From Sphingomonas sp. 32-66-10 (lineage in GTDB: Bacteria > Pseudomonadota > Alphaproteobacteria > Sphingomonadales > Sphingomonadaceae): a stretch of DNA of 64,000 nt. The translations under genes were made by a program, and so were the position numbers. The notes under the pieces are model-generated. The model made no database searches, had not been told where the DNA came from, and worked only from the letters and a program-made list of their open reading frames with translations. Within the stretch, counting starts at the first letter, position 1, and every line of letters starts with the position of its first letter. Below, in pieces: positions 33,131 through 40,237 of this stretch. The stretch is taken from NCBI GenBank assembly GCA_002280565.1, contig NCEF01000019.1:1-64000 (forward strand), in the 5' to 3' direction.

Positions 33131-35806
33131 TTACCCCTGCGCCGCCATGGCCCAAGCCCCGGCGACCTCCTGCCGATGCCGGTCGAGCGACGCAACCACA
33201 TCATTCCATTCCGCCGCGCCGACCGCATGCGCCACCATCGCCCGCGTCGCCTCGCCCGGAGGCTGCGCATCGGGCGCCACCAGCCGCATCGTCACCAGCA
33301 AGCGCGTGAGAAAGTCATGCGCTGGACCGATCCTGGGCGACAGCAGCCCTGCGGCGGACAATGCATCCGCGGCTTCCCGCAGTCCCGGCGTGAACGCCGT
33401 GCGGTGCACCAGCTGAAGCGTGTGGACCGCAAATTCCAGGTCGACCAGACCGCCAGGCAACAGCTTGGCGTCGAGCGGCCCCTGTGGCGGCTTGTGCGCC
33501 GCCATGTCGGCGCGCATTTTCGCCGCCTCAGCCGCAATGTTCCGCTCTGGCCGATTACCCGCAAGCACGTCGGCGATCACCCCCGCCACCGCGTCGCGCC
33601 CAGCTGTCGACCCGAACACCGTGCGCGCACGGGTCAGCGCCATATGCTCCCAGGTCCACGCCTCCTCACGCTGGTAGCGGGCAAAGCCGTCGAGCGAGAC
33701 CACCACCGGCCCCTGCGCGCCCGACGGACGCAGCCGCGTATCGACCTCGTACAGCGCCCCCGCCGCCGTCGCGACCGACAGTGCCGCAATCACGCGCTGG
33801 GCGAGGCGGTTATAATAGGTCACCGCGCCCAGCGGCTTTTCGCCATTGGATTCGGCGAGGTGATCGCCAGTGAACAGGAAGATGAGGTCAAGGTCGCTGG
33901 CATGGGTCAGCGCCCCGCCGCCGAACCGCCCGAGCGCCAGAATCACCAGCTCGCTGTCCGGCACCCGCCCATGCCGCACCGCAAATTCGGCGACGGTCGC
34001 TTCGGCCAGCACCGCCAGCGCCGCCTCCGCCACCCGCGCATAGCCGGCCGAGACATCGAGCGGATCGCTCGCCCCCGCCACGATTTGCGCGCCCAGCGCA
34101 AAGCGCTTCTCGCCCACGATCTGACGGACATGGTCGAGCAGTCGCTGATAATCGTCCCCAGCCTCGCGCCGCGCCATGTCCCGCGCCAGCTCCGCCACCG
34201 ACCCGACCGGTGCCAACGCGCTCGCATCGATCAGCCCGTCGAGTAGCTCGACCCGCCGCGCCAGCGCATCCGCCAGTGTCGGCGCATGGCTGAGGATCGT
34301 CGCGAGCAATTGCGCCAGCGTCGGCCGCGCCTCGAGCAAATGGAACAGGTTGAGCGCGGTCGGTAATCGCGACAGGATCGTGTCGAGCCGCGCCAGCGCC
34401 GCTCCCGGATCGGGCGACTGGCCGATGGCTGCGATCAACGGCGGCAGCGCCGCCTCCATCGCCGCCTGCGCCGGGGCACTGCGCAATGCGCCATAACGCC
34501 CGCTGCGCCACCCCTCGATCAGTCGGGTCGCGCTTGCGGGATCGGCAAATCCGGCTTCGGCAAGCCCCGTTTCGGCCACGACTGCACCGGGCGTGCCGCG
34601 TCCGCCATCGTCGCTGTCGAGCGCGTCGTAAATCTGTCCCACCGCCTCGACATGCGGACGCAACAGATCGAGCAGGTCGTCGCCGCGGTCGAGCCCGTGC
34701 AGCCGGGCGACGGCATCCAGCGCTTCGCCATGCGGCAGGGCATGGGTCTGGCGGTCGTCGATCATCTGCACGCGATGCTCGATCGTGCGGAACAGGATAT
34801 AGGCGTCGCTTAGCTGCGCGGACGCCTCCGCATCGATCCGCCCCGCCGCCGCCAGCGCGGCAAGCGCATCCAGCGTCGCGGGTGCCCGCAGCGCCGGATC
34901 GCGCCCGCCATGAATCAGCTGGTGGATCTGCGCGAAAAACTCGACCTCGCGAATGCCGCCGCGCCCGCGCTTGAGGTCGAACCCCGGCCCAAATGCCTGG
35001 CCCTGCGCATGGTGATCGCGAATGCGGCGCGAAATGCCGCGGATCTCGCGGATCGTGCCGTAATCGAGTGCGCGCCGCCACACGAACGGACGGATCGTAT
35101 CGAGAAACCCTTGCCCCAGCGTGCAATCCCCAGCCGCCGCGCGGGCGCGGATGAATGCGGCGCGCTCCCACGGCAGCGCCTGCGATTCATAATAGCTGAT
35201 TGCCGCCACGGCCGGGAGCACGATCGGCGTTACCTCGGGCGACGGCCGCAGCCGCAGGTCGATGCGCAGCACATAGCCATCGGCATCGCGCGCCTGCAGA
35301 ATTTCGACCACGCGTCGCCCGATCCGCACCGCCGACTCCTCCACCGCGTCGCGCTCGCGATGCGGCAATGTCGCGGGATCGAAGATCAGGATCGGGTCGA
35401 TGTCGGAGGAGTAATTGAGCTCATGGCTGCCCTGTTTGCCCAGCGCAATCGCCGCCAGCCCGCGCGGTTCCGCTCCCGGCACGCGCTCGACAATGGCTCC
35501 GCCGATCGCGGCGTCCAGCGCATAGTCCGCAAAATCCGACAGCGCGCGCGTGACCGTGACGAAATCGCGCTGCCCCGAAAGATCGCCGATCGCCGCCGCC
35601 AGCGCCAGCCGCCGCCGCTCGATCCGCAATCGGCGAGACAGCGGCATGGCCGGATCGTCGATCCGCGCGGCACCAATGGGATCGCGGACCGCATTCGCAA
35701 TGTCGGCGATCAGTGCATGCTCACGCTCGATCAGGTGGGCCAGGAACGGTGCATTTCGCGACGCGCGTTCGATCGCGTCGCTGATCGCAGTATCGGCTTC
35801 AGCCAT
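33131..35806 (-). CDS. glnE: Bifunctional glutamine synthetase adenylyltransferase/deadenylase
   Basis: The 891-residue product has duplicated nucleotidyltransferase domains: N-terminal deadenylase with LGKQGSHELNYSSDID and C-terminal adenylylase with LGRFGGGALTHASDLDLIF, the acidic D-x-D metal ligands intact in both. Helical domains with GlnE-specific stretches (RGRGGIREVEFFAQIHQL, LLPGGLVDLEFAVHTLQL) join them. GlnE adjusts glutamine synthetase activity in response to PII state and glutamine. Its length is close to the usual 890-950. It leads a probable operon with bcp and the DUF455 gene. Confidence 0.95.
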   Translation of the reverse strand: MAEADTAISDAIERASRNAPFLAHLIEREHALIADIANAVRDPIGAARIDDPAMPLSRRLRIERRRLALAAAIGDLSGQRDFVTVTRALSDFADYALDAAIGGAIVERVPGAEPRGLAAIALGKQGSHELNYSSDIDPILIFDPATLPHRERDAVEESAVRIGRRVVEILQARDADGYVLRIDLRLRPSPEVTPIVLPAVAAISYYESQALPWERAAFIRARAAAGDCTLGQGFLDTIRPFVWRRALDYGTIREIRGISRRIRDHHAQGQAFGPGFDLKRGRGGIREVEFFAQIHQLIHGGRDPALRAPATLDALAALAAAGRIDAEASAQLSDAYILFRTIEHRVQMIDDRQTHALPHGEALDAVARLHGLDRGDDLLDLLRPHVEAVGQIYDALDSDDGGRGTPGAVVAETGLAEAGFADPASATRLIEGWRSGRYGALRSAPAQAAMEAALPPLIAAIGQSPDPGAALARLDTILSRLPTALNLFHLLEARPTLAQLLATILSHAPTLADALARRVELLDGLIDASALAPVGSVAELARDMARREAGDDYQRLLDHVRQIVGEKRFALGAQIVAGASDPLDVSAGYARVAEAALAVLAEATVAEFAVRHGRVPDSELVILALGRFGGGALTHASDLDLIFLFTGDHLAESNGEKPLGAVTYYNRLAQRVIAALSVATAAGALYEVDTRLRPSGAQGPVVVSLDGFARYQREEAWTWEHMALTRARTVFGSTAGRDAVAGVIADVLAGNRPERNIAAEAAKMRADMAAHKPPQGPLDAKLLPGGLVDLEFAVHTLQLVHRTAFTPGLREAADALSAAGLLSPRIGPAHDFLTRLLVTMRLVAPDAQPPGEATRAMVAHAVGAAEWNDVVASLDRHRQEVAGAWAMAAQG

Positions 35807-35886
35807 CCAATTATCGTTTCGGCTGGCGATCAGACAGTTTCTGATCTGTCAAGCAACAAAATGCAAAAAGAGACGTTCTGTATCGC

Positions 35887-36087
35887 ATGGGTTTCAAAGC
35901 ACCTCGATCGCCCGCTGGGCAACGCGATAGCGGCTATTGGGTGGAAGCGCCACGGGCGACCGACCCGATTGGCTTCGCGCTACGCGAAACCTATGGCGAT
36001 GATCGCGACTTGCCGTCGGACATGCAGGAATTGCTGAGCCAGTTGAGCACGGTAAAAAATGCCGCAGGGCGCAGCAGTCACGGCTGA
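35887..36087 (+). CDS. NepR-like protein (second anti-sigma candidate)
   Basis: The 66-residue product contains IGFALRETYGDDRDLPSDM followed by QELLSQLSTV. This lines up with the NepR encoded at 38025 (IGDALRRVYQDAAGEDIPDD, then LLDLLRKLD): same A-L-R-x-x-Y, P-x-D and L-L-x-x-L spacing, two residues shorter in the loop. NepR proteins bind EcfG sigma factors until phospho-PhyR displaces them. It converges on ecfG, 17 nt from its stop. No EcfG promoter was seen upstream and the RBS is weak. Family membership is by eye. Confidence 0.6.
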   Translation: MGFKAPRSPAGQRDSGYWVEAPRATDPIGFALRETYGDDRDLPSDMQELLSQLSTVKNAAGRSSHG

Positions 36088-36104
36088 CCGGCCCCGCAGC
36101 GGCC

Positions 36105-36719
36105 TCATTCCCGACTGAGTTCGTCGACCTCATCCATGATGGTATCGAGTGCGCTGCGCCCGTCCGTGACGCTGTCCGCCCGCGAGGGAAGATCGCCGCC
36201 GCTCATCAACGCCTCCAGCGCAACGCGACCACGCGCGACGCGGCTCTTGATCGTTCCGACTGCCACACCGCAAATTTCGGCGGCTTCCTCATAGGCAAAG
36301 CCGCCGGCACCAACCAGGATCAGCGCCTCACGCTGCGGCTGAGGAAGATGCAGCAGTGCGCGCTGCATATCGGCCAGCTCGACATGGCGGTCCTGGCTGG
36401 CCGGTGCCGCCAGAATGCGGTCGGCAACCAGATCGTCCCATTCGCCCTTGAAGCGCGCGCGTCGCATCTGGCTCAGATACAGGTTGCGCAGGATGATGAA
36501 GGTCCATGCACGCATATTCGTTCCAGCCTGAAACCGCTGGCGCGCAGCCCACGCCTTCATCAGCGTTTCCTGAACCAGGTCATCGGCGAGATCGCGGCTT
36601 CCCGACAACGAACGGCCGAACGCGCGCAGATGCGGGATCACGACCGCGAGCTGTTTCTTGAACTCGGGGTCAGAGAGCGCAACATGCTCCACTGGCGCGT
36701 ATTCGTCGGTGTCGCTCAT
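36105..36719 (-). CDS. ecfG: ECF sigma factor EcfG (general stress response)
   Basis: The 204-residue ECF sigma factor has region 2 (LADDLVQETLMKAWAARQRF, AWTFIILRNLYLSQMRRAR) and region 4 (LPQPQREALILVGAGGFAYEEAAEICGV, GTIKSRVARGR). In this locus it should be EcfG, which directs the alphaproteobacterial general stress regulon at GGAAC-N16/17-CGTT type promoters. It is held by NepR and freed through PhyR. The start was set at MSDTDEY. The small membrane protein gene and phyR lie upstream on the same strand. Confidence 0.9.
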   Translation of the reverse strand: MSDTDEYAPVEHVALSDPEFKKQLAVVIPHLRAFGRSLSGSRDLADDLVQETLMKAWAARQRFQAGTNMRAWTFIILRNLYLSQMRRARFKGEWDDLVADRILAAPASQDRHVELADMQRALLHLPQPQREALILVGAGGFAYEEAAEICGVAVGTIKSRVARGRVALEALMSGGDLPSRADSVTDGRSALDTIMDEVDELSRE

Positions 36720-36798
36720 TAGAATCCGTTCGTCTTGCGCAGCATAGTGCCGCACCGCAGGAGATTGGCACGCCGTGCGCACCGACCACGCCGATGCA

Positions 36799-36936
36799 TC
36801 AGATCAGCAGGAAAACCGCAAAGATCACAATGATCAACGTCAGCGAGATTGCCAGGATATACCGCGTCATGTGCGGGGTCGCCCCGGCACGCACGCGATC
36901 GGTCTCGATATGAAGGGGGTCGTTTTGATCAGCCAT
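36799..36936 (-). CDS. Small single-pass membrane protein in the stress locus
   Basis: A 45-residue frame between phyR and ecfG begins MADQNDPLHIETDRVRAGAT and ends in one hydrophobic helix (YILAISLTLIIVIFAVFLLI). It lies 49 nt after phyR and 79 nt before ecfG, on the same strand. Topology should be N-in, with an acidic/basic cytoplasmic head. The family is unknown to me. Coding is supported by sense of the helix and position only. Confidence 0.55.
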   Translation of the reverse strand: MADQNDPLHIETDRVRAGATPHMTRYILAISLTLIIVIFAVFLLI

Positions 36937-36985
36937 GACCGCACAACCCCCCAGAACCGTTTTAGGTCCGTAAGAAATGGAACTT

Positions 36986-37792
36986 TCAGGTCGCCGGGAC
37001 GGTCGCCTGATCGAAAAACAGCGCCTGGCTGATCGCCGCCTTGACCGTCGAACGCTGGAACGGCTTGGTGATCAGGAAGGTCGGTTCGGGCCGTTCACCG
37101 GTCAGCAGCCGCTCGGGGAACGCGGTGATGAAGATCACCGGGACATCGAACTGCGCCAGGATATCCTTCACCGCGTCGATGCCCGAACTGTCGTCCGCCA
37201 GCTGGATATCGGCCAGCACCAGCCCAGGGCGATCCTCCATCGCCAGCGCGACCGCTTCGTCACGGGTGACCGCCACGCCGGTCACATCATGCCCCTGATC
37301 GCGCACGATGGTTTCCAGATCCATCGCGATCAGCGGCTCATCCTCGATGATCAGCACGCGCGCGCGGGTCTGGCGTTCGATTTCGGACAGGGCATGCGAC
37401 ACCAGGTCCTCGACTGCGTCTGCCGATTCATCCAGCAGATAGGCCGCGTCCTCGCTGGTGAAGCCTTCCATCGCCGTCAGCAGCAGCGCCTGACGCGACC
37501 GCGGCGCAAGCCGCGCGAGCCGGGCACGGGCAATCGCCTCATTCTCGGTTGGATTGCCGACATCGCCGGGATCGCGGTCAGCGTCGAGGTGGGTCGAACC
37601 CCAGATCGCCTGAAAGGTGCGATACAGCCCCAGCCGCGGATCGACACCGCGCGGAAACTCCTCTGGTGCCGCAACGATGGCCTCGAGCGTGGCACGCACA
37701 TAACGGTCGCCCTCGGTCTGGCTGCCGGTGAGCGCGCGGCCATAGCGGCGCAGAAAAGGCAGGTGAGGCGCGAGCTGCTGTCCTAACGACAT
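36986..37792 (-). CDS. phyR: Anti-anti-sigma response regulator PhyR
   Basis: The 268-residue product joins an N-terminal sigma-factor-like domain (about 1-135, mimic of EcfG regions 2 and 4) to a C-terminal receiver. The receiver has Asp195 as phosphoacceptor (LVLADIQLAD), the acidic pair in LIIEDEPLIAMD and Lys243 (LITKPF). Phosphorylated PhyR binds NepR and so releases EcfG. It is divergent from nepR. The start was chosen at MSLGQQLAPHLPFLRRYGR, with AAGGAG 11 bases upstream. No EcfG-type promoter was found upstream on this strand. Confidence 0.95.
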   Translation of the reverse strand: MSLGQQLAPHLPFLRRYGRALTGSQTEGDRYVRATLEAIVAAPEEFPRGVDPRLGLYRTFQAIWGSTHLDADRDPGDVGNPTENEAIARARLARLAPRSRQALLLTAMEGFTSEDAAYLLDESADAVEDLVSHALSEIERQTRARVLIIEDEPLIAMDLETIVRDQGHDVTGVAVTRDEAVALAMEDRPGLVLADIQLADDSSGIDAVKDILAQFDVPVIFITAFPERLLTGERPEPTFLITKPFQRSTVKAAISQALFFDQATVPAT

Positions 37793-37901: not shown

Positions 37902-37926
37902 GGAACAAACGAGCTTGGGATTGGTT
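37902..37926 (+). promoter_or_regulatory. Candidate EcfG-dependent promoter of nepR
   Basis: GGAAC (37902-37906), a 16-nt spacer and GGTT (37923-37926) give a match one base off the EcfG consensus GGAAC-N16/17-CGTT. It lies about 100 nt upstream of the nepR start, on the correct strand. This would give the usual feedback of EcfG on its own anti-sigma factor. Confidence 0.5.
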
Positions 37927-38024: not shown

Positions 38025-38210
38025 GTGTTTCCGGCCGACGACAAAAACAAGGCTACGCCGTCAAACGGCGCGGACCAGCCGCCGCCAAAGAGCGGCGCGG
38101 CGCCGCAGTCCGATCGCAATATCGGCGATGCGCTGCGGCGCGTTTATCAGGATGCCGCGGGTGAGGATATTCCCGACGACCTGCTCGACTTGCTACGCAA
38201 GCTCGACTGA
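38025..38210 (+). CDS. nepR: Anti-sigma factor NepR
   Basis: The product has about 61 residues. The disordered N-terminal half is followed by the NepR core IGDALRRVYQDAAGEDIPDD and LLDLLRKLD (two helices that clamp EcfG). NepR sequesters EcfG in unstressed cells. The start is taken as GTG with GGGGGACGAG before it. An in-frame ATG 18 codons upstream is possible. Divergent from phyR and 17 nt before the phyP-like kinase gene. Confidence 0.85.
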   Translation: MFPADDKNKATPSNGADQPPPKSGAAPQSDRNIGDALRRVYQDAAGEDIPDDLLDLLRKLD

Positions 38211-38227: not shown

Positions 38228-39793
38228 GTGGATGAGCTGAAGCGCCAGGGCGGCGCTGGCCTCATGGTCGCCGTCGCCCGCATGCCGACCGGGGCCAAGG
38301 TCTTTCTGATCCTGAGCGCCGCGCTCCTGCCGCTCGCGCTCATCGCATTTCTCGCGTCGCTGCAAACAACGCGAATCGCCGACCAGGAGGTGCGCGCGCG
38401 CCTGCGGATCGCCACCAACGAGGCCGCCCGCTCGCTGCGCAGCGAACTTGCCTGGGAGCTGCGCGAGGTGCGCGGTGCCCTTCCTGCGGGCCCGGACCAG
38501 GCACCGAATTGCGGACGGCTGGCCGGCCTGTTCGAACCCCAGGCAGATCAGGGCGTGCGCTATGCAGTACTCGACCCGTCGTTGCGACTGATCTGCGGCC
38601 AACCCATCCCCTCGGCCGCATCGCCGGCCGCACCCAACGATCCCTCGCCCATCCGGTTGCTGCCCGGAACCGGCGCGCAAATCGAGGTGACCGGACCGGC
38701 GGGCCATATTGCGCGCGCGTTTTTCCCGACCGACTTTCTTGCCAGGTCGGCCGCACCGACGGGCATGGCGAGCGATTACGGCATGGAGCTGATCAGCTCG
38801 GATCGCGCCCTGGTCCTGCGTGAGTTCAGCGCGCAGTCGCTGCTGGCGCGCACCGAAAGCCAGATCGTCGATCTGGATATTGAGGATTTGCAGCTGCAGA
38901 TGACGGTGCCGAGCGCGCCGGTCACGTCCTCGGCCATCATCGCGGCCTTGTCGCCCTTTCTGATGTGGTTCCTTGCCGCTGCCATCGCCTGGTTCGTGGT
39001 CGATCGGCTGCTGATTCGCCCGTTGCGCCAATTGCGCACCACGGTCGGCGCGTATCAACCGGGCGAGGTGATCGATCCCGTCGGCGGCAGCGATATCCCG
39101 GCCCAGGAAATTCGCGCACTCGGCGACACCTTCCGTCAGTTGAGCCAGACCGTCCAGCTGCACGAGCGCGATCTCGCCGAAGGCTTGTCACGCCAGACCA
39201 AATTGACGCGCGAAGTGCATCACCGGGTCAAGAACAACCTCCAGGTGATCGCCAGCCTGATCAACTTCCACGCCCGGGTCGCCGCCGAGCCGGGCGCGCT
39301 CGAAGCCTATGCCTCGATCCAGCGCCGCGTCGATGCACTCGCGGTGGTGCATCGCCACCATTATGCCGGATTCGAGGATACGCGCGGGATCGAGATCCGC
39401 GCCGTGATCGGAGAGCTCGCCTCGAACATCCGCGCGACCGCGCCCGAGCGCAACGCGGTGGGCATCATGCTCAATATCGAGCCGCTGCTGGTTTCGCAGG
39501 ACGCGGCGGTCGCGGTCTCGTTCCTGATTACCGAGATCGTCGAACTGGCGATGCTCGCGTCGCCGGGCGCCCAGATCAACATTTCGACCCAAAGCGACCC
39601 GGCCAAACCTGACAGCACTACGTTGCGTATCAGTTCGCCGGCACTGACCGACTCAGCCGAGTTTGCGGCCCTGTACGAGCATCGTTATGGGCGCGTGATC
39701 GGCGGGCTCGTGCGCCAGCTGCGGTCGCAATTGCATCACGATCCGTTGATCGGCGCCTTCGAACTCGCCATCGCGATCACCGGCCGGACCTGA
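38228..39793 (+). CDS. phyP: HisKA_2-type sensor kinase of the PhyR locus (PhyP-like)
   Basis: The 521-residue product has TM1 (about 22-44), a periplasmic domain (about 45-235), TM2 (about 237-260), HAMP-like region, and a HisKA_2 H-box REVHHRVKNNLQVIASL (His331/332). In the ATP-binding domain the N-box reads LITEIVELAMLASPG, with Glu where Asn is expected, and no DNGxG block is seen. In Sphingomonas melonis the equivalent protein PhyP acts negatively on PhyR, which fits a phosphatase-like role. The start may be later (ATG 38264 or 38282). Confidence 0.75.
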   Translation: MDELKRQGGAGLMVAVARMPTGAKVFLILSAALLPLALIAFLASLQTTRIADQEVRARLRIATNEAARSLRSELAWELREVRGALPAGPDQAPNCGRLAGLFEPQADQGVRYAVLDPSLRLICGQPIPSAASPAAPNDPSPIRLLPGTGAQIEVTGPAGHIARAFFPTDFLARSAAPTGMASDYGMELISSDRALVLREFSAQSLLARTESQIVDLDIEDLQLQMTVPSAPVTSSAIIAALSPFLMWFLAAAIAWFVVDRLLIRPLRQLRTTVGAYQPGEVIDPVGGSDIPAQEIRALGDTFRQLSQTVQLHERDLAEGLSRQTKLTREVHHRVKNNLQVIASLINFHARVAAEPGALEAYASIQRRVDALAVVHRHHYAGFEDTRGIEIRAVIGELASNIRATAPERNAVGIMLNIEPLLVSQDAAVAVSFLITEIVELAMLASPGAQINISTQSDPAKPDSTTLRISSPALTDSAEFAALYEHRYGRVIGGLVRQLRSQLHHDPLIGAFELAIAITGRT

Positions 39794-40102: not shown

Positions 40103-40237
40103 ATGCGCAAGATTCTGACGATAGCGATGCTCGCGGGCGGTCTTGCCCTGTCGGCCTGCAACACGGTCGAAGGTCTGGGCCGCGACGTTGAGTCGGCTGG
40201 CGATACCGTCGCCAAGACCGCCGAAGACGCCAAATAA
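40103..40237 (+). CDS. Entericidin A/B family small lipoprotein
   Basis: The 44-residue product has lipobox ALSAC and the family tail NTVEGLGRDVESAGDTVAKTAEDAK. In E. coli the entericidins are an antidote/toxin lipoprotein pair. In alphaproteobacteria single copies are typical stress-induced envelope proteins. TGGAGAAG precedes the ATG. Converges with tatC, 13 nt apart. Confidence 0.85.
   Translation: MRKILTIAMLAGGLALSACNTVEGLGRDVESAGDTVAKTAEDAK

Follow-up and report, generated by a model that had tools for sequence, protein, structure and literature searches.

The window analysed here, a 64,000-nucleotide stretch of the Sphingomonas sp. 32-66-10 genome, contains a second NepR-like gene, nepR2, beside the general stress sigma factor gene ecfG. 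With a probability of roughly 80%, this gene is the orthologue of NepR2 from Sphingomonas melonis Fr1, which is induced by EcfG and limits the general stress response by negative feedback. The gene, its homology to NepR, its promoter sequence and its conserved position are established in the present work. An orthologue was published in 2019 and nepR2 is not new in kind; what is new here is modest, namely the breadth of its conservation, a uniform arrangement of promoter and start codon, and the probable misassignment of one residue.

The nepR2 gene and its neighbours

The nepR2 gene occupies positions 35887-36087 on the plus strand, runs from ATG to TGA and encodes 66 amino acids. Its product contains DPIGFALRETYGDD..LPSDM..LLSQL, the pattern from which an earlier note had proposed a second NepR-like gene beside ecfG, and the core reads DPIGFALRETY-x6-PSDM-x3-LLSQL. 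This proposal was borne out by an ORF with exactly the proposed ends, by its coding character, by synteny and by profile homology to NepR. In a comparison with the closest relative (L003, 74% amino acid identity), dN was 0.170 and dS 0.625, with 9, 10 and 24 changes at codon positions 1, 2 and 3; dN was 0.283 and dS 0.605 against the relative L004. This substitution pattern indicates that nepR2 is a real gene with a coding frame under purifying selection. A chance ORF at 35887-36087 was ruled out by dN/dS and synteny. The reading of nepR2 as a relic or a young copy of the adjacent nepR was likewise rejected, because its family is conserved and distinct, marked by a promoter class and an invariant P-x3-D not shared with nepR.

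Upstream of nepR2 lies the divergent glnE (33131-35806, minus strand, identified by domain and family search), with the two start codons 80 bp apart. Downstream lies ecfG (36105-36719, minus strand), convergent with nepR2, with the stop codons 17 bp apart. It is followed by a 45-amino-acid ORF with one hydrophobic stretch (36799-36936, minus strand), by phyR (36986-37789, minus strand; PhyR family, 371 bits), which encodes the anti-anti-sigma response regulator expected to be the partner of NepR2, and by the first nepR (38025-38210, plus strand), which matches PF18557 and, by comparison with relatives, probably starts at the GTG at 38025. With PF18557, the nepR core at 38115-38210 scored 46.3 bits when the genome was searched and 43.5 bits as a protein, which confirms the NepR core that had been noticed 2 kb away. 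A HisKA_2 histidine kinase gene (38228-39793, plus strand), found by domain search, holds the position of phyT according to the Fr1 gene numbers.

In Fr1 these numbers are #1443 for phyT, which encodes a PhyR phosphotransferase, #1444 for nepR, #1445 for phyR, #1447 for ecfG and #1448 for nepR2 (PMC6599016). The window neighbourhood of phyT, nepR, phyR, the small ORF, ecfG and nepR2 agrees with Fr1 #1443-#1448 in gene order. By this order the 45-amino-acid ORF is the counterpart of Fr1 #1446, which appears in the list of the top EcfG-dependent genes (PMC6599016). In the window an EcfG-like GGACC-N16-GGTT was seen by eye before this ORF (36945-36969, minus strand), ending 8 nt before its ATG.

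An inverted repeat, GATCAG-N7-CTGATC, lies between glnE and nepR2 at 35828-35846; by eye it is intact in L004 and almost intact in L003, and it is possibly a regulator site. A small lipoprotein-like ORF at 40103-40237, which from its appearance we take to be entericidin-like, corresponds by position to Fr1 #1442, an EcfG-regulated 'predicted small secreted protein'. The source assembly comprises 2.68 Mb and is 83% complete. One full-length PhyR was found in this incomplete assembly, together with a second EcfG-like sigma factor gene (L131, C9:1134-1646) that is 39% identical over residues 13-184.

Homology of NepR2 to NepR

The earlier note had recommended a profile search with NepR, to be read as a refutation if nothing matched, and its result was divided: the single window sequence gave no match, whereas its family did. 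Taken alone, the window NepR2 had no Pfam or NCBIfam match at E values up to 1 and did not reach the PF18557 family cut-off. A PF18557 search of its own genome at E up to 10 returned nepR as the sole match and missed nepR2, and a single-sequence search of the PDB at E up to 10 returned only the unrelated Darcin (E = 0.89). The family as a whole was linked to NepR, with a probability of 95-97%. Two profiles were used: A1, made from 30 NepR2 orthologues without any NepR, and A3, made from the 65 aligned orthologues, an alignment that includes the window sequence itself (L002) and excludes L015 and L017. When the 65 orthologues were searched singly at E up to 0.1, PF18557 matched 13 of them, with 1.7e-4 as the lowest E value. 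A1 matched the nepR of the source genome with E = 2.6e-6, and profile-profile comparison with 27 NepR sequences gave probabilities of 96.5% (A1) and 95.2% (A3) over 28 columns. The top PDB match of A3 was S. melonis NepR (2lfw_B), with E = 0.013, weak by itself.

AlphaFold2 predicted two loop-joined helices in the window NepR2, residues 26-36 and 44-60, with low-confidence ends and a mean pLDDT of 72.6. The best PDB match that Foldseek gave for this short model of medium confidence had E = 5. NepR, both that of the window and that of S. melonis (PDB 2LFW, chain B), and NepR2 have in common the helix pair [IM]G-x-ALR-x2-Y ... P-x2-[ML]-x3-LL-x-[QK]L. From these sequence comparisons we conclude that the two-helix core of NepR2 is homologous to NepR. 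The two families differ in that the inter-helix loop is two residues shorter in NepR2 (10 residues from Tyr to Met/Leu, against 12 in NepR) and in that P-x3-D before helix 1, in contrast to NepR, is invariant in NepR2 (65/65 rows).

Conservation and synteny

The A3 profile detected nepR2 in 98 of the 101 genus genomes searched, with a best E value of at most 3.6e-9 in each; cross-matches to nepR began at about 1e-5, and the profile was built in part from the very genomes it searched. With E values up to 0.01, a single tblastn query gave a match in 76 of the 101 genomes, although some of the weaker matches may be due to chance. Of 61 genus genomes searched with PF18557 at E up to 0.001, 60 gave a single match and one gave none; when compared by eye, none of these matches was at the NepR2 place, so that annotation is likely to overlook nepR2.

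The position of the gene is equally regular. Among the first 30 nepR2 loci, the window's own included, glnE was adjacent in all 30 and ecfG in 29. In a set of 41 named loci fetched with the Fr1 NepR fragment, nepR2 lay between glnE and ecfG in 37, and its site was cut by a contig end in two (L119 and L121). In the remaining two, Sphingomonas sp. RIT328 (L085) and S. melonis AS2.3 (L089), nepR2 was absent beside ecfG and present beside glnE elsewhere. Our literature search found nothing joining NepR with glnE.

An order-wide search at E up to 1e-5 covered 118 genomes and found nepR2 in 7, each of them a Sphingomonas genome; its reach beyond the genus is therefore patchy, or the profile is too narrow. 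A search of the family at E up to 1e-3 gave matches in 86 of 298 genomes, with nepR and nepR2 matches mixed. At the 14 best-scoring loci from other genera of the family, which are not a random draw, glnE was adjacent in 14 and ecfG in 11. One member of the genus (G080) has a further NepR-like match at C1:3044696-3044824 (E = 5.5e-7), far from the nepR2 place, which is perhaps a moved nepR or a third NepR-type gene.

Promoter and start codon of nepR2

Feedback by NepR2 requires an EcfG-type promoter, and such a promoter was found at 35853-35877: GCAAC (35853-35857), 16 nt, CGTT (35874-35877), followed after 9 nt by the ATG. The pattern G(C/A)AAC-N16/17-NGTT precedes nepR2 in 65/65 aligned orthologues, which are mutually related, so that the following counts are not independent events. 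The -35 box is GCAAC in 49 rows and GAAAC in 16, and GGAAC in none; the -10 box is CGTT in 55, GGTT in 4, TGTT in 4 and AGTT in 2; and the spacer is 16 nt in 54 rows and 17 nt in 11. From the end of the promoter to the start codon there are 8 nt in 33 rows and 9 nt in 32. The start codons of the 65 orthologues had been chosen with the promoter in view; in the 32 rows that offer a single ATG candidate, the strict rule holds for 31, with the promoter 8-9 nt upstream, which removes most of the circularity. As a control, a looser promoter rule applied to ATGs at large in the DNA examined picked out 179 of 20285, the nepR2 genes themselves included.

A distance of 8-9 nt leaves scant room for a leader, and the nepR2 mRNA is thus probably leaderless or nearly so. 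Only 6 of the 65 rows have a Shine-Dalgarno-like string before the start codon. A literature search joining Sphingomonas, leaderless mRNA and transcription start site found nothing. The promoter class of nepR is different: GGAAC with a leader, as against GCAAC or GAAAC directly before the start in nepR2. In the window the nepR promoter was read by eye as GGAAC-N16-GGTT at 37902-37926, and GGAAC-N15/17-NGTT was present upstream of nepR in 41/41 named loci, separated from the matched core by 147 nt or more. In Fr1 the nepR promoter lies 92 nt before the coding sequence (PMC6599016).

This difference could mean that the conserved promoter sets the timing of nepR2. An off-consensus -35 box and a leaderless mRNA would make NepR2 a late brake acting at high EcfG, with delayed shut-off, and nepR2 would be translated under stress by another route than nepR. 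We regard this as a tentative suggestion. It is weakened because GGAAC and GCAAC, which outnumber all other -35 boxes in Sphingopyxis granuli, showed no difference in vitro there (PMC7083833), and because GCAAC promoters occur in the table of the Fr1 genes that depend most on EcfG (PMC6599016).

Comparison with NepR2 of S. melonis Fr1

The name NepR2 was given to Fr1 #1448 by Gottschlich et al. 2019 (PMC6599016). It resembles the window gene in its place beside ecfG, its NepR-like C-terminal core and its EcfG-linked promoter. In Fr1, nepR2 is a member of the EcfG regulon and acts as a negative feedback regulator: reporter activity rose in the knock-out and fell on overexpression, and overexpression lowered salt resistance (PMC6599016). 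Stress induction of the gene was modest (log2 about 0.9) and under the authors' cut-off (PMC6599016). PhyR co-precipitated with NepR2, which the authors propose to be a PhyR antagonist (PMC6599016). NepR2 and EcfG were both unstable on co-expression, which according to the authors ('data not shown') might suggest that they form no complex (PMC6599016).

Identification of the Fr1-type protein among our sequences was based on residue numbers. The NepR fragment of L082 is 100% identical to residues 15-55 of 2lfw_B, and the NepR2 of L082 has L31, R32, F35 and M46, in accordance with the published numbering, while that of S. aquatilis (L081) shares L31, R32 and F35; the L082 NepR2 is therefore probably of the Fr1 type. 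The record of L082 is titled Arthrobacter sp. TPD3018, yet it carries a Sphingomonas-type stress locus, and the label is probably wrong. The L082 protein is 32% identical to the window NepR2 over the alignment. The residues L31, R32 and F35 tested in Fr1 are L32, R33 and Y36 in the window protein, with Tyr for Phe as in NepR itself.

Two of the published substitutions, R32A and M46A, had no effect, M46 being said to correspond to NepR M48 (PMC6599016). The R32A result implies that not all conserved positions matter in vivo. When the sequences were anchored on the conserved Pro, PDEM48 of NepR aligned with PEDF44 of the Fr1-type NepR2 and with PSDM46 of the window protein, so that the position of NepR Met48 is held by Met46 in the window protein and by Phe44 in the Fr1-type protein. 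If Fr1 is as L082, the published M46 appears to be displaced by two residues and the counterpart of NepR M48 would be F44.

Proposed function and alternatives

By analogy with Fr1, the product of the window gene would depend on EcfG for its expression, bind PhyR and form no stable complex with EcfG. Under stress, PhyR would be phosphorylated and would pull NepR off EcfG. The freed EcfG would transcribe its regulon, nepR2 included, from the promoter at 35853-35877. NepR2 would then occupy PhyR through its NepR-like helix pair, NepR would be returned to EcfG, and the response would be limited or switched off. We prefer this role as an EcfG-induced PhyR decoy because Fr1 NepR2 co-precipitates PhyR and belongs to the EcfG regulon. 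A protein of another alphaproteobacterium, MexAM1_META2p0735 of Methylobacterium extorquens, is similar by description: it too is a NepR homologue that co-precipitates PhyR, it showed no EcfG interaction in two-hybrid assays, it has an EcfG-type promoter and it acts as a negative regulator on overexpression (PMC4814048). The extra layer on the stress switch that the earlier note had expected from a second NepR-like protein beside ecfG is supported by these data.

The main rival is direct binding of EcfG: NepR2 would be a genuine anti-sigma factor beside NepR, and PhyR would antagonise both. The homology of its helix pair to NepR over 28 columns and the adjoining ecfG are consistent with this, and RsiA1 and RsiA2 of Sinorhizobium meliloti, both said to be of this kind, provide a precedent (PMC4814048). 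However, the instability seen in Fr1 on co-expression with EcfG affected NepR2 and not NepR (PMC6599016), and in two-hybrid assays no binding to any EcfG was seen for three NepR homologues of M. extorquens, of which two co-precipitated PhyR (PMC4814048). Moreover, nepR2 lies beside glnE and away from ecfG in L085 and L089. We consider direct binding unlikely.

The earlier note had offered two examples of such a layer, a basal brake that PhyR does not free and an anti-sigma factor with a different sigma partner. The second EcfG-like gene of the source genome could provide such a partner, and the Fr1 knock-out raised reporter activity already in low-stress medium (PMC6599016). Nevertheless, the Fr1 protein co-precipitates PhyR, and Fr1 has only one EcfG (PMC6599016). 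The EcfG-type promoter and the place of the Fr1 gene in the EcfG regulon imply that expression follows the response, which makes the control a feedback and not basal. Both examples are thus disfavoured, and we hold them to be very improbable in comparison with an EcfG-induced PhyR decoy.

That the convergent layout itself regulates, through ecfG and nepR2 transcripts that overlap tail to tail and interfere with each other, is hardly credible: the stop codons are close (median gap 18 bp over 64 loci, with overlapping frames in 8) and the sole minus-strand terminator-like site in 35800-36800, a stem at 36076-36060 beyond the end of ecfG, falls within the 3' part of nepR2, so that the mRNAs may overlap, but gaps between -44 and 532 bp occur, the neighbourhood is lost in L085 and L089, the terminator scan is weak evidence (2 sites against 0.7 in shuffles), and overexpression from a plasmid suffices for the effect in Fr1 (PMC6599016).

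This NepR2 is known to us from one strain, Fr1, and one paper, and its gene is present in nearly all Sphingomonas genomes sampled here. Should this conservation hold, two NepR-type proteins whose promoters differ systematically would be the rule in the Sphingomonas stress switch, and both should figure in models of how the response is limited and brought to an end. We give rather less than an even chance to the joint statement that NepR2 belongs to this switch almost universally, though unnoticed, and is also the late brake suggested by its promoter. The name itself is in double use, since the 'nepR2' of Sphingopyxis granuli TFA is a gene in an operon with ecfG1, a different arrangement (PMC7083833).
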